In this document: positions 959 to 28,600 of the stretch, in pieces
Layout: the number at the start of each line of letters is the position of its first letter
Numbering within the stretch: the first letter of the stretch is position 1
DNA from: Bacteroidota bacterium
Lineage (GTDB): Bacteria > Bacteroidota > Bacteroidia > Chitinophagales > Saprospiraceae
DNA length: 35,461 nucleotides
Reading direction: 5' to 3'
Assembly: GCA_009908745.1 (NCBI GenBank)
Contig: JAAAOU010000468.1
Coordinates: forward strand, 1-35,461
Notes under the pieces: generated by a model
Database searches by the model: none
What the model was told of the DNA's origin: nothing
What the model saw: only the letters and a program-made list of their open reading frames with translations
Position numbers and translations under genes: made by a program

Positions 959-1107
959 CCTGCAAGGTTTCCGGGCGTACCATCGGCAAGGCAGGAAGAA
1001 ACAGCTAGGTAGGACAGGGCAAGGCAAGCTTAAGCAACAGCTTACCCGGCAGTATATTGACCAAACTTAGTGCTCCACCCCAGCCTTTCCTCCGAAGGCA
1101 TGAATGA

Positions 1108-1275
1108 ATACCAGTTGTGGCAGGTCTTCTGGCTTACTTCTTTGTTTTGCCGCCTTCCCATCATCTCCCGACAGTGGCGTAGTAGCAAAACATCATCGAA
1201 GCTTACAGCAGCGGGGACTGCCCAGGATTCTCACCCGGTTCCCTTTTAAACAGCAGCGTAGGCTCCTGTACCATA
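1108..1275 (-). promoter_or_regulatory. Cobalamin riboswitch
   Basis: Read on the minus strand, the leader of the TonB receptor has the conserved parts of the adenosylcobalamin riboswitch in order: GGGAACCGGGTGAGAATCC (about 1243-1225), then CAGTCCCCGCTGCTGTAAGC (about 1220-1201), a variable arm, and the B12 box AAGCCAGAAGACCTGCC (1135-1119). This class represses downstream expression when B12 is plentiful. The remaining 160 bases to the start codon (958-1118) would hold the expression platform, but I could not assign a clear terminator or sequestering hairpin there. Exact ends are approximate. Confidence 0.94.
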
Positions 1276-1284
1276 ACTGTATGC

Positions 1285-1320
1285 CAAAGGTACAAAATAT
1301 AGGACAGATGGCTGACCAAA
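1285..1320 (-). promoter_or_regulatory. Predicted promoter of the riboswitch/btuB transcript
   Basis: Minus strand: perfect Bacteroidota -7 box TACCTTTG at 1292-1285, with TTTTGG at about 1320-1315 as a possible -33 element (spacing somewhat long, about 22-24 bases). Transcription would begin near 1280, a few bases ahead of the first riboswitch helix, which supports the assignment. Confidence 0.5.
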
Positions 1321-20698: not shown

Positions 20699-23197
20699 TC
20701 AATACAGCTGCAATTTATAAGCAGAACGCGCCCCTTCTACCCCCACTTCCAATTTGTAAAGCCCCGCTGGCAGGTCACCAAGCCGGAGCGGCAATCGCTG
20801 CTGGCCCGCTGTAAAGCCCTGCTGCCCCGATCGCAGCGTCCGTCCTAAGGCGTCGTAAAGCTGCCAATTTAACGTTCCCGAGCGGGGACTGAGCACCTCG
20901 AGAAAGACCTGCTCCCGGGCGGGGTTCGGAAACAGCCGCAACGACAAGCCGGCCTCTTCCAGAGAAGCTGGCGCGCTATCCGGCATCAGCTCGCCGATGT
21001 CCACTAGATCAATGTATATGTTGTTGCCAAAATCGCCCACACTTTCAAATTCAACGGTAATACCCTGCCCGGCAAATGCGTCAAGGGGCAAAGTCACGCT
21101 TTTCCAATCGGAGCAATCCTCGGGGACGAAGGGCACCACTGAGGGGTCAGTGCTCGCCAACTCCTCGCCAAACTGTTCAAAAACCGTGGTTTTTTGCCCT
21201 TCGCAATCAATAATGTGCACCCGCAGTCCATCTTGGAAGAAGCTTGCTTTCATCGCGTAAGCCAAGTCAAAAGTCAGCGCCGGCTTCTCTAGGCCGCTCA
21301 GGTCAAAATTAGCGCGGAAGAAGTCGCTCGTGCCCCTAGTGTCATTGAAAAAGTGCTCAATGCGCATGGCACCGGGGTCGCAGCTTCCACCTTCCACCCG
21401 CTCCCAACGGGCCGCATCCTCATCCGGGTTCTCCACCGCCCAAATATCAGTTTGGAAGCTGGCAGAGAAATCTTCCAGATAAGGAGGGTAAAGAGACTTA
21501 ACCGTGACGGCTTGCTGACGCTGCAAGGTATCGGCAATGCCCTCGCCGTAGGCTATGAGCAAAACATCGTACTGCCCCCCCTCTGTGTAGATGACGGCAG
21601 GGTTTTGCTCCGTTGTTGTGGATGGGGTACCCCCCGGAAAGTGCCAGCGCAGGCTGTCGTATGCCCCCTCGGTGCTATTGCTAAAGGTGATACTGCCCCC
21701 CGGGCAAAGCGTCTGCTGTGCCGGGCTGAAAGCAGGGCGCAGCGCATCCACTTTAAACCGGAAGTACCCCTCCGGTGCCACAATGGGGCGTACCTGCTGT
21801 TTGCCGTTGTGGGCTTCGGCAGCGATGTAGTACTCGACAACTGTATTCTCCGGCTGGGCAGGGATAGCGGCGGACCATCGTGCAGCAGTGGTATCCGTTA
21901 GGGCCATAGGGATAGCGGTATAAGCATCTTCCCCTGCTATCCGGTAGTGCAAATTGGCGCTGACGATACCCGACCGGTGCTTGATAATGGCGTAAGTCTC
22001 GTAATCTTCCTCCGTGTTGTCGGTATCCCGCAGCCGGGGGTGGGCAATCCATAGCGGGTCAGCTACCCCTACGATCTTGGTGATGCAGTGGATGGCCCCA
22101 AAGCGCGGTATGATGTCGTTGCAATCGATACCCACCACATTGTAGCCGGGCAGGTTCTCCCGATAAAGGCGCAACGCGGTGGTGTCGTATTTTTCTTCGT
22201 AAATGGGTACCATGACCGTACCGTTGAGGAAGAGGGAATTGGTATAGGTGCGGTAGTCGCCTCCTTGGTCCGGGTAGCGGTCGTTACCGTCCGGCGGCAT
22301 CGGCAAACGCAGGATGTTGTAATGATTCCCAAAAGGCGTGAGCACCTCGTTGCGCAGGTACTCGATATTGGCCTCTATCTGCGGGCCATCAGCCACCCCT
22401 TCCGGGTATTGCCCAATAAACACGGTCTCCTCATCGATAAACCGCATGTGCATATCCAAGTGGGAAATGACATCATAAGGCAGGCGGGGCAGCTTGACGT
22501 AACGGCCCGCGCCGAGAAACAGCTCCGCCAGTTCATCAATCTCCGCCTCTGTCTTGTCCGGGTTTTCCTCCAACACCAAATCGGAAGAAAAAATCGTCCC
22601 CATGCCATCCCGCAAATTATTGCCGCCGGCGTGTACCCAGCGGTAAGGCGGATCGGCCGCTTCGAAGACAGGCAAGCCAAGGTGCTCGGCAATAAAAGCG
22701 GGTATTTTGTCATCGTCCTCCCGGGTGGGCCGGTTGTACCGCCAGTCGGCGATCATCAAGCTATCCACGTCATTATGGTAGATGGTCCAAGGGCCGTAGT
22801 CTCGTATCCAGATGGAATTATAGGGCGCCTGCAACAACACCACATTATCCAGCGGCACCCCGCCGGCCTCTAGGTAATCCGCTACCGCGTCAAGGTTCTC
22901 CTTCACGAAGACGTAGACGGTACACTCGTTTACGCCGTGGCGCACAATTTCCCGCAGCAGCTCGGTATGCTCATTACGCCAGCTGACAAGCAATGCCTGC
23001 GCCTCCTCCCATTCTGCCATCAAACGGACCGGCGCCGGCGGGGGCGTATTGGGCGTGTCCAGCAAAGTATAGTCTAGCAGGCTCTCTTCCGCCGGCAACT
23101 GCACAGGGGTGCCTTGAGGGTAGGAAAAGGGTTGTTGAGCTGGCAGGCTGATAGCCAAGCCCAAGTATAAGACTAGGGTGATGTAGCTTGCTTTCAT
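20699..23197 (-). CDS. Secreted peptidylarginine/agmatine deiminase-family enzyme with PKD-like and T9SS domains
   Basis: An 832-residue secreted guanidino-modifying enzyme. Signal peptide 1-20 (LPA|Q), deiminase domain about 55-395, an Ig-like stretch, a PKD-like domain (about 490-575), a jelly-roll-like domain (about 580-745), and a T9SS sorting domain 752-832 beginning SLRLFPNPARE. Catalytic residues are all present: Asp133 in IRDYGPW, His246 and Asp248 in SHLDMH, and nucleophile Cys371 in GAIHCITK, with spacing close to that of Porphyromonas gingivalis PPAD (Asp130, His236, Asp238, Cys351, from memory). The family covers agmatine deiminases and PPAD; export by T9SS favours a protein or peptide arginine substrate, which is inference. 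Abuts the glutaminyl cyclase gene with no gap. Confidence 0.9.
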   Translation of the reverse strand: MKASYITLVLYLGLAISLPAQQPFSYPQGTPVQLPAEESLLDYTLLDTPNTPPPAPVRLMAEWEEAQALLVSWRNEHTELLREIVRHGVNECTVYVFVKENLDAVADYLEAGGVPLDNVVLLQAPYNSIWIRDYGPWTIYHNDVDSLMIADWRYNRPTREDDDKIPAFIAEHLGLPVFEAADPPYRWVHAGGNNLRDGMGTIFSSDLVLEENPDKTEAEIDELAELFLGAGRYVKLPRLPYDVISHLDMHMRFIDEETVFIGQYPEGVADGPQIEANIEYLRNEVLTPFGNHYNILRLPMPPDGNDRYPDQGGDYRTYTNSLFLNGTVMVPIYEEKYDTTALRLYRENLPGYNVVGIDCNDIIPRFGAIHCITKIVGVADPLWIAHPRLRDTDNTEEDYETYAIIKHRSGIVSANLHYRIAGEDAYTAIPMALTDTTAARWSAAIPAQPENTVVEYYIAAEAHNGKQQVRPIVAPEGYFRFKVDALRPAFSPAQQTLCPGGSITFSNSTEGAYDSLRWHFPGGTPSTTTEQNPAVIYTEGGQYDVLLIAYGEGIADTLQRQQAVTVKSLYPPYLEDFSASFQTDIWAVENPDEDAARWERVEGGSCDPGAMRIEHFFNDTRGTSDFFRANFDLSGLEKPALTFDLAYAMKASFFQDGLRVHIIDCEGQKTTVFEQFGEELASTDPSVVPFVPEDCSDWKSVTLPLDAFAGQGITVEFESVGDFGNNIYIDLVDIGELMPDSAPASLEEAGLSLRLFPNPAREQVFLEVLSPRSGTLNWQLYDALGRTLRSGQQGFTAGQQRLPLRLGDLPAGLYKLEVGVEGARSAYKLQLY

Positions 23198-23274: not shown

Positions 23275-26200
23275 TTATCCTTTCAGTTGATCCAGGCGAT
23301 TGCGGTAGATGAATTTGGGCGTGGAGTTATACAGCTTTTCGTAGAGCCGCAGCGCATGCTGTTGGTAAGCGGTTTCCTGCGGATGGACCAACTGTAGTTC
23401 GTAGTAAATGGCGGCCAGGTTATCTTCCTCCTCCGTAGTGTCGAGCAAAGCGTTGAGGATGTGCAGCGCGCCGGCTTCGTCATCGTGCGCGTGATGCTGC
23501 TTGGCGGCGAGCATTTGTGCCTCAAATATCAGGTCAGGGTTGCCGAGCTCTTCGGCAATGCCCAATACTTCCTCTACTACCTTTTCCAAAGCCGCCAGGT
23601 CTTGTATAGCCAACAAAACCAAACCTTTTTCCACTAAGCTGCTGCCGAGCACCAATTTGTTGTTGATGCGGCGCGTGACTTCAATGGCACGGTCGTAGTA
23701 GTGCAATGAGCGCTTGTACTCCTCCATCAAATAGAATACGTCGCCCAGGGTATTCAGGGCTTTGGCGATCCCCTTTTGATACCCCAGCTCTTCGCAGAGC
23801 ATCAAGTTTTTTTGCAGGTATTCAATAGCTTTGTTGAAATGCCCTTCAATGCTGTGCAGCTCACCGATCAGGCCGAGGGCGATAGCTGTCCCCTGCTTGT
23901 CGCCTAGCTCCTCGCACAATTCCAAGTCGCGCTGAAAGTTCTCCATTGCCCGGTGGTAATCGCCTTTGCGCTCGTACACACTGCCAATACAGCCGATAGC
24001 GATGGACGTCAGCAGTTTGTTACCCAGTTCTTCGCTCAGGTCCAGCCCTTTCTGGTAGCTTTCCAAAGCCGCGTCGTAGTCGCCTTTTTCAAAGTAAACG
24101 ATGCCTAGGTTGGTGTAGAGGTTGGCCATGCCCTGCTTGTCGTTGCTACGCTCGCTGACTTTCAGTTGGAGCCGTTGCGACTTGATCCCCTCATCGTAGT
24201 CGCCCTGATTCATGTAGGTCAGCCCCAGGTTGGAGGCCACCTGCGCGCGGCTGCTCGGGTCTATGCTATCGTCTTCGATGTCCAAGCTTTGCCGGAAGTA
24301 AGCTTTAGCCTCATCGTACTTCCCTTGCCGGAAATAGAGATTGCCGAGGCTGCCGTAGACCCGTGCCAACCCGCCCTGATCGTCCACCGACTCAAACAGC
24401 CCGGCGGCGATCTGCAGGTAATTCATGGCTTCTTGGTAGTCGCCCTTGAGCAGCAGCAGCCCGCCCAAGCTGTTGTTGGCTTGGCCCAGCAGCAGCACAT
24501 CGCGTGACTGCTTGGCGATGGCCAGTGCTTTTTCGTAAGCCGTTTGGCACTCCTCCCAGTTGCCGATGAGTTCCAATACCTTGCCTTTATTGAGATAGGT
24601 ATGGATTTGGTCGGCGGTGTCTTTTTGCTGGCCCAGTTTTTTCAGCAGCTTTTCGTAGTAGTCCAGCGCCTGCTGATTTTGGTAGTTGCTGCGGGCGTAA
24701 TCAGCCGCTTTTTGCAGGTATTCACAGGTCTTGTCAAATACGCCAGCCTGTTCGTAGTGGAAGGCCAGGTCGACGTAGCGTTCTTCGATATTGTTGCCGT
24801 ACAGCCGCTCGATGGCTTCCGCGATCAGGCGGTGCAATTGCTCCAGCCGGGCCCGCAGTTGCATGCTGTATACCGCTTCCCGCAGCAGGGAGTGCCGGAA
24901 AATGTAGCGCAATTCGTTCATCGCGTGCCATATCTGCCCCTCTTCGGCGTGTTTGATCTGCTCTTTCAGCAAGTGGGAAGCCTTGCCGTTCTGTTCATTG
25001 AATTCTGCTTGTTGCTTCATCACCTCCGACAAGATCGGCACTTCAAATTCCCGGCCGATCACCGCCGCCGCCTTTACGGTTTCCTTCACCATGTCCGACA
25101 GGCGGTCGATGCGGGCGGTGAGAATCGTATTGATGGAACTCGACAGCTGAATATCTTTGTCCTTCATCGTCCACTCCCCGTTTTCCTTGTCCAGCAAATG
25201 CCGCTCGGAGAAGTACTCCAAAATCTGCTCTAGGTAAAAGGGGTTGCTGTTGGAGGTGCGCAGCAGCATCTCGAAAAAGCCCTTACTCAGCGAGCCGCCC
25301 AGCCGCAATTCCGCAAACTCCCGCACGGCTTCCGGGCTGAGGGTATTGAGGTCAATTTCGAGCACCGGCAAGGTTTGCTCCTCTTCTACCATGCCGTTGA
25401 GAATAGGCGGCTTGGTGCCATCGTCCAGATAACGGGAGGTGATGACCATAAAGATGGGGAAACGCTCCATTTGCCGGACAAACTCCGAGAGCAGTTCCCG
25501 GCTGTTGTCATCTACCCAGTGCCCGTCTTCCAACTCCAGCACCATAGGCTGAATGAGGGACTCGGCGACGAGCAGGTTGATAATGGAAGACAGCGTATTT
25601 TGGTAACGCCCCTTGGCATCCAGCAAATCCCAGATGGAATCTTGGTACTCGAGGCCGATCAGCGCCGCTAGTATGGTCTTGGTCCGCACCAGTTCCCGGC
25701 GTACAGATTTGGCCTCGACGTTATTGACGGCGTCCAACTCTTCTACCAACTGCTGATAGCGCTCCTCGAAGTGCTGCAGATTGGCCAGGGGGGTGCTTTC
25801 CGGGTATTGCTCAAAGTAGTTTTTGAGGAAATAGATGAAAGGGTTGAACGGCTTGCGCAAAATCTGATCGGCCTGGCAGGTGTGCCATTGTACGAGCTTT
25901 TCGCCGTAGAGCACATCTTTGAGCTCGTATACCAGCCGCGTTTTGCCGACTCCAGCCTCACCGTATACATAGGCGATACCTGCGGGCCGCTCATCAAATA
26001 TAGGCTCTGCAAAAGCAATGAGTTTTTTAAGCTCTTGTTCCCGCCCTACCATCGCGCTAATGTAGGTCGGCCGGGTTTCGTAATTGCGCCCGATCAGCTT
26101 GTAGGTCGGTACGTTGCCCTTGATGCCCTTGTACTGTATGTCGCCACGGTGCTGAAAATTGAAGTGGCGGTTTTTCTGTATGTCGCTGTCTACCAGCACC

Positions 26201-27300
26201 TCGCCCCAGTTGGCGTACGTCATCAGCCGGGCCGCCAGGTTGACGCGGTTGCCCACAGCAGCGTACTGACAGCGTTCCTGCCCGCCGACGATGCCGGTGT
26301 AAGCCGTTCCCACAGTGATCCCTACGCGGTACTGCAGCTTGCTTTCCATCTGTAATTCCCGCAAGCTTTCGCGCAGGGTAAAGGTAAATTCCAAAGCCCG
26401 GTCGCTGTTGTTTTCAAACGACACCGGCGCGCCGAAAAAGCCGACCATCACGCCGCCTTTGTCGCCAAAGTCCACCTCCTTGAAATAACCGGAAAAGCTA
26501 TCGATTTGCTCCAGCACTACGGAGGCGAAGCGGTCGAGCTGCTCGTGGCTGTCCACTCCACGGAACGACAGGAAGATCGAGATAACGGTACGGAATTCCC
26601 CCTCTTGATTGTAGTTGGCTACTGCTTGCGGCAGGAACTTCAGCACCACCTCCTCGTCCAGCGGTGCCATATCTTTCACTGCCGGCGCTTCGGCCTGCCC
26701 TTCCGGGAGCAAGCCCCAGACCTTGTAGTAGCCGTCCTCTAGTTTTTTGATGTAAAAACCTTCCTCTTTGAGCAGCTGGCACAGCGCCTCGTCAATGACG
26801 ATATCCTGATCCTGCGCTTTCGTTTGGCATTCGGCGCAGTTGTCAATCGGCACGCCCCGGAAGTAAAAGGCTTTGTGGCTTGGTTTTCCGACAACGCCCC
26901 ACTCCACCTCGCCAAAGGAGAGCCCAAACTTGATGCCGATGGTAAAATTGCCAAAGCGGAACTCCCGCCGGCTGAACAGCTCCCGGGCCAGCATAGCGAC
27001 TTGCACGATGTCCCGCCCTTTTTCGGCTGACTGTTCGGCCGGGAACACCGCCGTGAAAGCATCGCCGGCGTAGTAGGGTATGAACCCGCCGTTGTTGTAG
27101 ACGAGGCTCACCAAAGGTTCGAATATCTCGTTGAGCACGTTGGTCAGCTGCTCGGCACCACGGCTCCCTTCCCGCATGAGGGCCTGCGTCAGGGGGGTGA
27201 AGCCGGACAGGTCTACGAAAAGGGTGTATGCTTTTACATGCCCGTGGCTTTGGCCTTTCAGGTATTGCTCTTGGATGTAGTGTGGAATAAGGTTCTTCAC
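23275..27300 (-). CDS. Soluble adenylyl cyclase-like protein: two class III cyclase domains, AAA ATPase, TPRs
   Basis: A 1341-residue cytosolic protein with the layout of animal soluble adenylyl cyclase. C1 (about 22-200) has both metal aspartates, FVDLSGFT (Asp30) and YYAGDAF (Asp80), but lacks a transition-state Asn/Arg. C2 (about 235-405) has lost the first aspartate (FLSFRGVD) yet keeps VNLAARL (Asn354, Arg358) and Lys274. The halves therefore complement each other to form one active site, as in sAC. A AAA/STAND-like ATPase follows (about 415-830): Walker A GEAGVGKT (Lys453), Walker B-like MVLELEDGHW (586-595). From about 860 to 1290 there are at least eight 40-residue TPRs, for example DYDAALESYQKGLDLSEELG. 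TPRs and ATPase likely sense or gate the cyclase. The product nucleotide is unproven. Lies 202 bases downstream of the TIR gene on the same strand. Confidence 0.92.
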   Translation of the reverse strand: MKNLIPHYIQEQYLKGQSHGHVKAYTLFVDLSGFTPLTQALMREGSRGAEQLTNVLNEIFEPLVSLVYNNGGFIPYYAGDAFTAVFPAEQSAEKGRDIVQVAMLARELFSRREFRFGNFTIGIKFGLSFGEVEWGVVGKPSHKAFYFRGVPIDNCAECQTKAQDQDIVIDEALCQLLKEEGFYIKKLEDGYYKVWGLLPEGQAEAPAVKDMAPLDEEVVLKFLPQAVANYNQEGEFRTVISIFLSFRGVDSHEQLDRFASVVLEQIDSFSGYFKEVDFGDKGGVMVGFFGAPVSFENNSDRALEFTFTLRESLRELQMESKLQYRVGITVGTAYTGIVGGQERCQYAAVGNRVNLAARLMTYANWGEVLVDSDIQKNRHFNFQHRGDIQYKGIKGNVPTYKLIGRNYETRPTYISAMVGREQELKKLIAFAEPIFDERPAGIAYVYGEAGVGKTRLVYELKDVLYGEKLVQWHTCQADQILRKPFNPFIYFLKNYFEQYPESTPLANLQHFEERYQQLVEELDAVNNVEAKSVRRELVRTKTILAALIGLEYQDSIWDLLDAKGRYQNTLSSIINLLVAESLIQPMVLELEDGHWVDDNSRELLSEFVRQMERFPIFMVITSRYLDDGTKPPILNGMVEEEQTLPVLEIDLNTLSPEAVREFAELRLGGSLSKGFFEMLLRTSNSNPFYLEQILEYFSERHLLDKENGEWTMKDKDIQLSSSINTILTARIDRLSDMVKETVKAAAVIGREFEVPILSEVMKQQAEFNEQNGKASHLLKEQIKHAEEGQIWHAMNELRYIFRHSLLREAVYSMQLRARLEQLHRLIAEAIERLYGNNIEERYVDLAFHYEQAGVFDKTCEYLQKAADYARSNYQNQQALDYYEKLLKKLGQQKDTADQIHTYLNKGKVLELIGNWEECQTAYEKALAIAKQSRDVLLLGQANNSLGGLLLLKGDYQEAMNYLQIAAGLFESVDDQGGLARVYGSLGNLYFRQGKYDEAKAYFRQSLDIEDDSIDPSSRAQVASNLGLTYMNQGDYDEGIKSQRLQLKVSERSNDKQGMANLYTNLGIVYFEKGDYDAALESYQKGLDLSEELGNKLLTSIAIGCIGSVYERKGDYHRAMENFQRDLELCEELGDKQGTAIALGLIGELHSIEGHFNKAIEYLQKNLMLCEELGYQKGIAKALNTLGDVFYLMEEYKRSLHYYDRAIEVTRRINNKLVLGSSLVEKGLVLLAIQDLAALEKVVEEVLGIAEELGNPDLIFEAQMLAAKQHHAHDDEAGALHILNALLDTTEEEDNLAAIYYELQLVHPQETAYQQHALRLYEKLYNSTPKFIYRNRLDQLKG

Positions 27301-27502: not shown

Positions 27503-28600
27503 CTAATCCATTTCCGTAAGCAGCCCCAGCAACTCCTCGTTGAGCTTATTGTGGCGCACCTCAAGCTCGGCGGGCATGGCAGTGGCATTGAGCCGGTCAT
27601 CTTTGAGGGCTTTCCAGCGTTGTTCCAGCAGCAGGGCACGTTTGAAAAAAGCCGGCTGCCGCTCCGTGATGCTGATCAGCTCTTGAATGAGCCGCTCGGT
27701 CTTGCCGTCCCGGAATAATTGAATAAGGACGTCGGTGTCATAATCGAAGCCCTCGTGCTGCCCGGGGCGGGGCGGCGGCGTGGCTTCGGAGACCGCATCC
27801 TCGGTGTAATCGAGTTGATCCCGTATGGTATCGACAAGCTGGCCGAGCTCGCGGCTGATGCCCGCGAAGGCTTCGTCCTCGCTGTCCCAAGACGTGATAG
27901 GCTGCCCACTACGAGGCAGCGCTTGCAACTGGCCGATCGGCAGCTGCTCTAAATGGGCGGTAGGCGCGTACAAAATGGGGACCAAAGCCAAGCGCTGCTG
28001 TTGCTGCCGGGTATACGCTCGCTGCTGCAGCTCTAGGCATTCAGCGGAAGCTACAAACTCCCGGCTGATTAAGGGGAGCACAATCTCTGCTTGCGACAAG
28101 GCTTGCTGCAAGGCTTTTTCGCGCTGCCCATGCGCCACTTGGTGCTGCCCAAATACTTCTACGCGCTTGAGGTGGCGGAGCAGGGCCATGCTTTTGACCA
28201 ATTCATTCATGCCCGATTCGTCAGCCGCAGCGTGTAAGATCATCAGGTTCACCGGGCCTTGCCCGCGCGCACTGCCGAAAGGTGGGTCGTAATGGGCAGC
28301 ATTCGCCGATACAGCACCGGTTTCGTCTTCTGAGACTAGCAGTCGTTCTTCGATAGCGTCTGCCAGCTTGAGCAGTTGGCGCTTGAGGCGATTGCGGCGT
28401 TCCCGAAGCGCGGTGTCGTTGCCTAGTTCCAGTTCCTCCCGCTCAATCGCGAGGAGTTCCGACTTTTGCATACTGACTGCCGTAAGGTAAGTTTCGCTGT
28501 AAGTCTTTGCCAGCGCCCGCAGCGCTTCGATAGCGGGGCCGAGTTCGCCAGCTTCAATTTGCTGCCGGATTGCGCTAACCCTGGAGTCTGCTGAGGCCAT
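27503..28600 (-). CDS. TIR domain protein flanked by effector-associated-like helical domains
   Basis: A 365-residue cytosolic protein with three parts. Residues 1-88 are a helical domain resembling effector-associated domain 11 (IRQQIEAGELGPAIEAL ... ERRNRLKRQLLKLADAIEE). Residues about 116-258 are a TIR domain: VNLMILHAAAD, then the helix/strand run to IVLPLISREFVASAEC (173-188), VPILYAPTAHLEQLPIG, LQALPRSGQPITSWDSEDEAF, a pattern common in bacterial conflict-type TIRs. Residues about 286-365 are a second EAD11-like domain (VLIQLFRDGKTERLIQEL ... RHNKLNEELLGLLTEMD). TIR domains cleave NAD or act as adaptors; EADs recruit partners. The usual catalytic Glu is not obvious: Glu190 is two residues past Cys188, and the position four past it is Gln192. 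Upstream of, and on the same strand as, the cyclase. The domain calls are by eye. Confidence 0.78.
   Translation of the reverse strand: MASADSRVSAIRQQIEAGELGPAIEALRALAKTYSETYLTAVSMQKSELLAIEREELELGNDTALRERRNRLKRQLLKLADAIEERLLVSEDETGAVSANAAHYDPPFGSARGQGPVNLMILHAAADESGMNELVKSMALLRHLKRVEVFGQHQVAHGQREKALQQALSQAEIVLPLISREFVASAECLELQQRAYTRQQQQRLALVPILYAPTAHLEQLPIGQLQALPRSGQPITSWDSEDEAFAGISRELGQLVDTIRDQLDYTEDAVSEATPPPRPGQHEGFDYDTDVLIQLFRDGKTERLIQELISITERQPAFFKRALLLEQRWKALKDDRLNATAMPAELEVRHNKLNEELLGLLTEMD

Follow-up and report, generated by a model that had tools for sequence, protein, structure and literature searches.

A tandem cyclase-ATPase-TPR protein of the Saprospiraceae as a candidate guanylyl cyclase on a soluble adenylyl cyclase scaffold

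Human soluble adenylyl cyclase (sAC, the product of ADCY10) is a C1-C2 pseudo-heterodimer with split catalytic half-sites, followed by an AAA/NTPase part and tetratricopeptide repeats (TPR), and we know of no account of how the ATPase part drives the cyclase in ADCY10. Both sAC-like enzymes and tandem cyclase-AAA proteins are already known in bacteria; Kobayashi, Buck and Levin (cited in PMC3085406) reportedly described in 2004 that bacterial and eukaryotic sAC share a domain structure. In the human enzyme Lys334 recognises the base and Lys95 and Arg176 bind bicarbonate (according to PMC12867704), and Thr405 is an adenine contact (according to PMC12250328). Here we describe a gene of this build in a stretch of 35,461 nucleotides (the window; contig JAAAOU010000468.1 of assembly GCA_009908745.1) from a Bacteroidota bacterium of the family Saprospiraceae. 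Its product would be a soluble class III nucleotidyl cyclase gated by a STAND-type ATPase and TPRs, and the likeliest activity on this sAC-type scaffold is that of a guanylyl cyclase, a reading to which we give a probability of roughly 0.5.

Among described guanylyl cyclases, the bacterial enzymes Cya2, XC_0250 and that of R. centenum are not known to be tandem STAND-TPR proteins, and the soluble guanylyl cyclase (sGC) of Dictyostelium is the enzyme on which Roelofs and colleagues are said to have worked. The Dictyostelium sGC is sAC-like, has two catalytic domains and makes cyclic GMP (cGMP; PMC11988041), a likeness to the window protein that is one of description; unlike the window protein it is eukaryotic, and its N-terminal region permits association with cortical actin, as described in PMC11988041.

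The gene is open throughout, and its GTG start agrees with relatives, the start methionine being listed as at least 90% conserved in an alignment (A1) in which the ends of several rows had been placed by homology. Screening of the 1341-residue product with Pfam gave Guanylate_cyc in two stretches (1.8e-22), AAA_16 at residues 418-617 (8.7e-19) and multiple TPR models reaching residue 1293. The domain order is C1-C2-AAA-TPR. An earlier note on this DNA had placed AAA and TPR behind the cyclase as in ADCY10, and both the Pfam matches and the AAA-part model described below agree with it.

The structure of residues 1-410 was predicted from an alignment with 20 relatives (pLDDT 89.3, pTM 0.88). With Foldseek, the first 24 matches in the PDB were all human sAC (TM by query 0.81-0.84). 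VIA-align superposed the model on human sAC (PDB 4clf and others) with a Z of 40.4 and a root-mean-square deviation of 2.7 Å over 391 aligned residues at 25% identity, and the runner-up, transmembrane AC9, reached a Z of 36.8 at 17% identity. In sequence searches, too, human sAC outscored every other cyclase of solved structure, with both halves matched (2.8e-25 with the single sequence, 8.5e-54 with a profile). The model is of a predicted C1/C2 pseudo-heterodimer of two fused cyclase domains, as in sAC, which is the outcome on which the earlier note had staked its claim when it proposed this superposition. The whole-length superposition, together with ungapped local alignments, would place the catalytic residues in one pocket, and the C2 hairpin with its DKG turn is common to both proteins.

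Conservation was followed in two sets with no sequence in common (101 in total), namely 81 rows, comprising the window and 80 loci, and 20 relatives chosen for divergence at 32-50% identity. Ungapped alignments equate D47, D99, K144, N412 and R416 of sAC with D30, D80, K124, N354 and R358, so that all four of the metal and Asn/Arg residues of sAC have counterparts. D30, D80, N354 and R358 are each identical in 81/81 rows and 20/20 divergent relatives, and K124 is Lys in 80 rows and Arg in one (Lys in 13 and Arg in seven of the divergent set). The Asn/Arg positions of C1 are occupied by D153 and E157, both Asn and Arg being present there in just one of the 81 rows. Conversely, the position of the first metal Asp in C2 is F243, a Phe in 81/81 and 20/20, and no Asp or Glu was found at C2 residues 239-245 in any of the 81 rows. 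The invariance of the catalytic residues in both sets points to one composite site of the sAC type kept by purifying selection, in which, as judged from these residues, C1 supplies the metals and C2 the Asn/Arg pair. The earlier note had read C1 as holding both metal aspartates (30 and 80) without an Asn/Arg pair, C2 as holding Asn354 and Arg358 without the first Asp, and this division of labour between fused domains as the sAC arrangement; all of this stands. One divergent branch (L131-L133, 35% identity) has Glu-Glu in place of the DKG turn of C2 and retains D30, D80, N354 and R358.

The residues expected to select the base differ from those of sAC. E275 aligns without gaps to K334 of sAC in the single-sequence, profile and MAFFT alignments alike, its register being anchored by the preceding Gly271 and the following DKG turn, and Glu is found at this position in 81/81 and 20/20 sequences. 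The hairpin strands are predicted at residues 272-279 and 282-289, and the distance from E275 to the turn would match that of Y76 in C1 if two extra residues per strand are allowed. K281 was considered as the adenine Lys and rejected, as it aligns to K340 of sAC. At the position of T405 stands A347, which is Ala in 81/81 rows, a figure inflated by a scan pattern used to collect loci that demanded Ala there and hence rejected as independent evidence; in the divergent set the residues are Ala (10), Val (5), Ser (3), Ile (1) and Asn (1). The adenine-selecting Lys/Thr pair of sAC-type adenylyl cyclases is thus absent.

In guanylyl cyclases, Glu replaces the Lys and the second position is Cys, Ser, Thr, His, Ala or Gly, with Glu-Gly in the cyanobacterial Cya2 (according to PMC4215837), and the data of PMC7384201 are given as support for a major role of the Glu contact. 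The bacterial guanylyl cyclase XC_0250, which is described as producing cGMP but no cAMP, carries Ala150 at a substrate-specifying position; this Ala is reported to be conserved in the R. centenum enzyme, and the A150S variant had lost its activity (PMC3770947). A Glu paired with a small residue marks guanylyl cyclases; the window protein carries both residues and resembles these bacterial enzymes at the base, and in the divergent set the second position is Ala or Ser in 13 of 20. A search of the genome with PF00211 gave four places, the window cyclase and three others, and these three carry EKIKT(I/V)GDAY and YDIWGD motifs, that is, the Lys/Asp adenylyl pair. With Lys/Asp in the sister cyclases and Glu/Ala in the window cyclase, two messengers would be split between enzymes. 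The genome also has 11 matches to cyclic-nucleotide-binding domains in a receptor search, a kind of match that does not distinguish cAMP from cGMP. From its residues, GTP is the most likely substrate and cGMP the most likely product, and we hold the chances of this to be about even.

Several points weigh against a guanylyl cyclase. The adjacent K274 is as invariant as E275 (81/81 and 20/20), and a bulge would place this Lys at the base; that E275 faces the base is read from the register of the alignments. Residue 347 is Val, Ile or Asn, outside the guanylyl-cyclase list, in seven of the 20 divergent members. Exchange of the base-selecting residues fell short of a full conversion of an adenylyl enzyme (as stated in PMC4215837), which makes them imperfect guides to the substrate. 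At this site Leu, Arg, Gln or Glu occurs in other tandem proteins of bacteria, so the rule for guanylyl cyclases may not transfer to the present branch, and XC_0250, which has the Ala, is without the Asn/Arg pair and makes a distant comparison. Instead, the protein might be an sAC-like enzyme that makes cAMP despite Glu/Ala at the two base-selecting positions, or that recognises adenine through K274. The closest solved cyclase is, after all, sAC, and the title of a reference cited in PMC4215837 describes most class III enzymes of bacteria as adenylyl cyclases. We nevertheless think this unlikely, since it is E275, not K274, that lies opposite K334 in three ungapped alignments, T405 has been lost too, and the sister cyclases of the same genome retain the Lys/Asp pair.

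Directly upstream of the cyclase, at 27503-28600 on the reverse strand, lies a gene with a TIR domain that is ThsB-like in PADLOC (8e-22) and has matches to the effector-associated domain EAD11. A pyrimidine cyclase of the Pycsar kind, making cUMP or cCMP and acting with this TIR gene in phage defence, is favoured by the arrangement on one strand and by the matches of six PADLOC PycC models (five best on C1, one on C2; best 7.7e-15). Clade A PycC proteins have two cyclase domains, D94, an Asp, helps to recognise the base in the uridylate cyclase BcPycC, and the pyrimidine-recognising residues differ between PycC clades (all according to PMC11224242). However, the TIR-EAD11 gene adjoins the cyclase in only one of 80 loci, that of the nearest relative, in a survey in which some contigs end close to the cyclase and some flanks are short; we treat the pair as local to the window branch. 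Moreover, Pfam finds no cyclic-nucleotide-binding domain in the TIR-EAD11 neighbour, which does not qualify it as a paired effector, the cyclase gene is found widely across one bacterial family, and weak PycC matches would presumably arise with any class III domain. A Pycsar-like role thus appears improbable. More improbable still is a catalytically dead cyclase in a mainly structural or regulatory STAND protein, for which the drift of C2 in some members (the DKG turn being Glu-Glu in three of the 20 divergent ones) might speak, as against metal Asps, Asn and Arg that are invariant in 101/101 sequences.

The bicarbonate site of sAC is not retained. The counterpart of K95 is Y76, which is Tyr in 78, His in two and Cys in one of the 81 rows and Tyr in 13, His in five, Cys in one and Leu in one of the divergent set; that of R176 is A156. 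Neither Lys at position 76 nor Arg at position 156 was found in any of the 101 sequences. The sAC of sea urchin and that of salmon, each without one of these two residues, are reported in PMC12867704 as unresponsive to bicarbonate. As judged from its residues, the window cyclase would not respond to bicarbonate by way of the sAC site. Two other residues of the former bicarbonate pseudo-site are strongly conserved in the family, R148 (Arg or Lys in 81/81 and in 16 of 20 divergent members) and D277 (Asp or Glu in 81/81 and 20/20), and possibly form a new ligand pocket or a salt bridge. An ADCY10-like adenylyl cyclase under the control of bicarbonate and Ca, as implied by the assays of the earlier note, has the shared architecture and fold in its favour yet is very hard to uphold with K95/R176, both missing in 101/101 sequences, and K334/T405 standing as Y76/A156 and E275/A347, and with one missing residue having sufficed in the sea urchin and salmon enzymes (PMC12867704). 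On the residues, the fixed guanylyl-type base pocket together with loss of the bicarbonate site is the new point of this family.

The part following the cyclase has the marks of an ATPase. G447, G450, G452 and K453 of the P-loop and E591 and D592 of Walker B are each identical in 81/81 rows, and R623 of the TSR motif is present as well. The predicted model of the AAA part, of moderate confidence (pLDDT 76.3, pTM 0.71), matches MalT (8bob), Apaf-1, NB-ARC and the STAND-TPR protein 6mfv at Z 14.1-14.5. The protein thus has what defines a STAND protein, an ATPase of the AAA type that carries a P-loop and Walker B and is joined to a repeat sensor, on a model of that quality. In addition to the moderate model, two results count against a STAND assignment, namely that origin-recognition AAA+ proteins tie with the STAND matches, with Z up to 14.8 (best 2qby), and that a profile search with this part against PDB sequences came back empty at a cut-off of 0.001. 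The likeness to MalT, Apaf-1 and 6mfv thus lies in the predicted AAA fold, the P-loop and Walker B, and the window protein differs from them in that its output domain is the N-terminal cyclase.

MalT and Apaf-1 have a closed resting state that is released by a signal. By analogy, the window protein might rest in a closed state from which a signal on the TPRs would free it. The C-terminal STAND-type ATPase and TPR array would sense a partner or ligand and then switch on the cyclase, whose active site would lie at the interface of two fused, specialised domains, C1 providing the metals and C2 the contacts to the base and the transition state, with GTP as the probable substrate and no bicarbonate control through the sAC site. 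Enzymatic activity, GTP preference and gating by the ATPase and TPRs are what we infer from these likenesses.

The gene appears to be old and kept mostly within its family. Among the nearest 59 genomes (its own included), a two-domain match of at least 39% identity occurs in 20, all of them among the 36 of the same family; none of the 23 from other families of the order has a two-domain match and one has a one-domain match. In a sample of the family, 141 of 298 genomes match at 1e-25, a count that includes an outlier (G017) and one fragment, and in a sample of the phylum 3 of 395 match at 1e-18, all in the same family and one being the genome itself. The nearest named relatives are Phaeodactylibacter, and carriers include Phaeodactylibacter xiamenensis and Lewinella cohaerens.

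Outside Bacteroidota, the spread was covered through plasmid records, of which 162 had some match and 13 had a single place covering at least 80% of the query. Six of the records were fetched and four (Leptospira, Microvirga, Ensifer and Rhizobium jaguaris; L125-L128) matched over both halves. These four tandem proteins are of similar size (1317-1397 residues) and have AAA_16 in 4/4, unlike the window protein in sequence (20-24% identity over 387-407 positions); Pfam TPRs exceed the cut-off in the Leptospira protein only. Their base-selecting pairs are Leu/Thr, Arg/Thr, Glu/Met and Gln/Thr, respectively, so that proteins with the tandem scaffold vary at this site; the window family is fixed at Glu. 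In an unrooted FastTree tree of 16 sequences, human sAC groups with the alphaproteobacterial proteins of Rhizobium, Microvirga and Ensifer (0.914) and the window family stands apart (0.995); hence the sAC match was rejected as a sign of closeness to animals. The 'full mammalian sAC architecture' of the earlier note holds for fold and domain order; the layout of tandem cyclase plus AAA is not specially mammalian, being present in four other bacterial proteins. A literature search of open-licence papers, with sAC-like hits judged by title, returned none on a Saprospiraceae cyclase family or an sAC-like bacterial guanylyl cyclase.

Positions of the cyclase gene, its domains and selected residues in the window
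Feature	Position	Strand	Remarks
Complete gene: C1-C2 class III nucleotidyl cyclase, AAA/STAND ATPase, TPR	23275-27300	-	1341 aa, GTG start
C1 half, about residues 1-195	26716-27300	-	metal site; Asn/Arg positions degenerate
D30, C1 metal Asp	27211-27213	-	codon verified
Y76, position of bicarbonate-binding Lys95 of sAC	27073-27075	-	
D80, C1 metal Asp	27061-27063	-	codon verified
K124, C1 phosphate Lys	26929-26931	-	
R148, former bicarbonate pseudo-site	26857-26859	-	
A156, position of bicarbonate-binding Arg176 of sAC	26833-26835	-	
C2 half, about residues 234-405	26086-26601	-	
F243, in place of first metal Asp of C2	26572-26574	-	
E275, position of adenine-recognising Lys334 of human sAC	26476-26478	-	alignments, counts, codon
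D277, former bicarbonate pseudo-site	26470-26472	-	
A347, position of Thr405 of human sAC, second base-selecting residue	26260-26262	-	
N354 in C2	26239-26241	-	codon verified
R358 in C2	26227-26229	-	codon verified
AAA/STAND ATPase, about residues 415-810	24871-26058	-	
TPR region, about residues 850-1341, likely sensor (putative role)	23278-24753	-	Pfam

A conserved partner gene was sought among the 80 loci; neighbours recur only partly, and no function was drawn from them. The most frequent neighbour from free clustering occurs in 29/80 loci, with 26 of its 29 members upstream and divergent; a next cluster, downstream, occurs in 25/80, and Usp was found near the cyclase in 4/80. Elsewhere in the window lie a cobalamin riboswitch (1102-1290, reverse strand, 117.2 bits) and a gene for an agmatine-deiminase-like protein with a type IX secretion system (T9SS) sorting domain, probably secreted (20699-23197, reverse strand); this sorting domain is in keeping with Bacteroidota.

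cGMP as a bacterial messenger is described in PMC3770947 as poorly understood, with compelling evidence recent as of 2013. It is plausible, at somewhat less than even odds, that a Bacteroidota family carries a STAND-gated guanylyl cyclase on an sAC chassis, a counterpart of the Dictyostelium sGC, in which the former bicarbonate pocket has been remodelled around Arg148 and Asp277 and may bind another ligand. If so, the change from cAMP to cGMP on the sAC scaffold would have occurred in bacteria too, showing this scaffold switching its base specificity and losing its bicarbonate switch, and the protein would offer a model for a STAND ATPase driving a cyclase. Moreover, a predicted guanylyl cyclase in 141 of 298 genomes of the family would open bacterial cGMP signalling to experiments in named strains.

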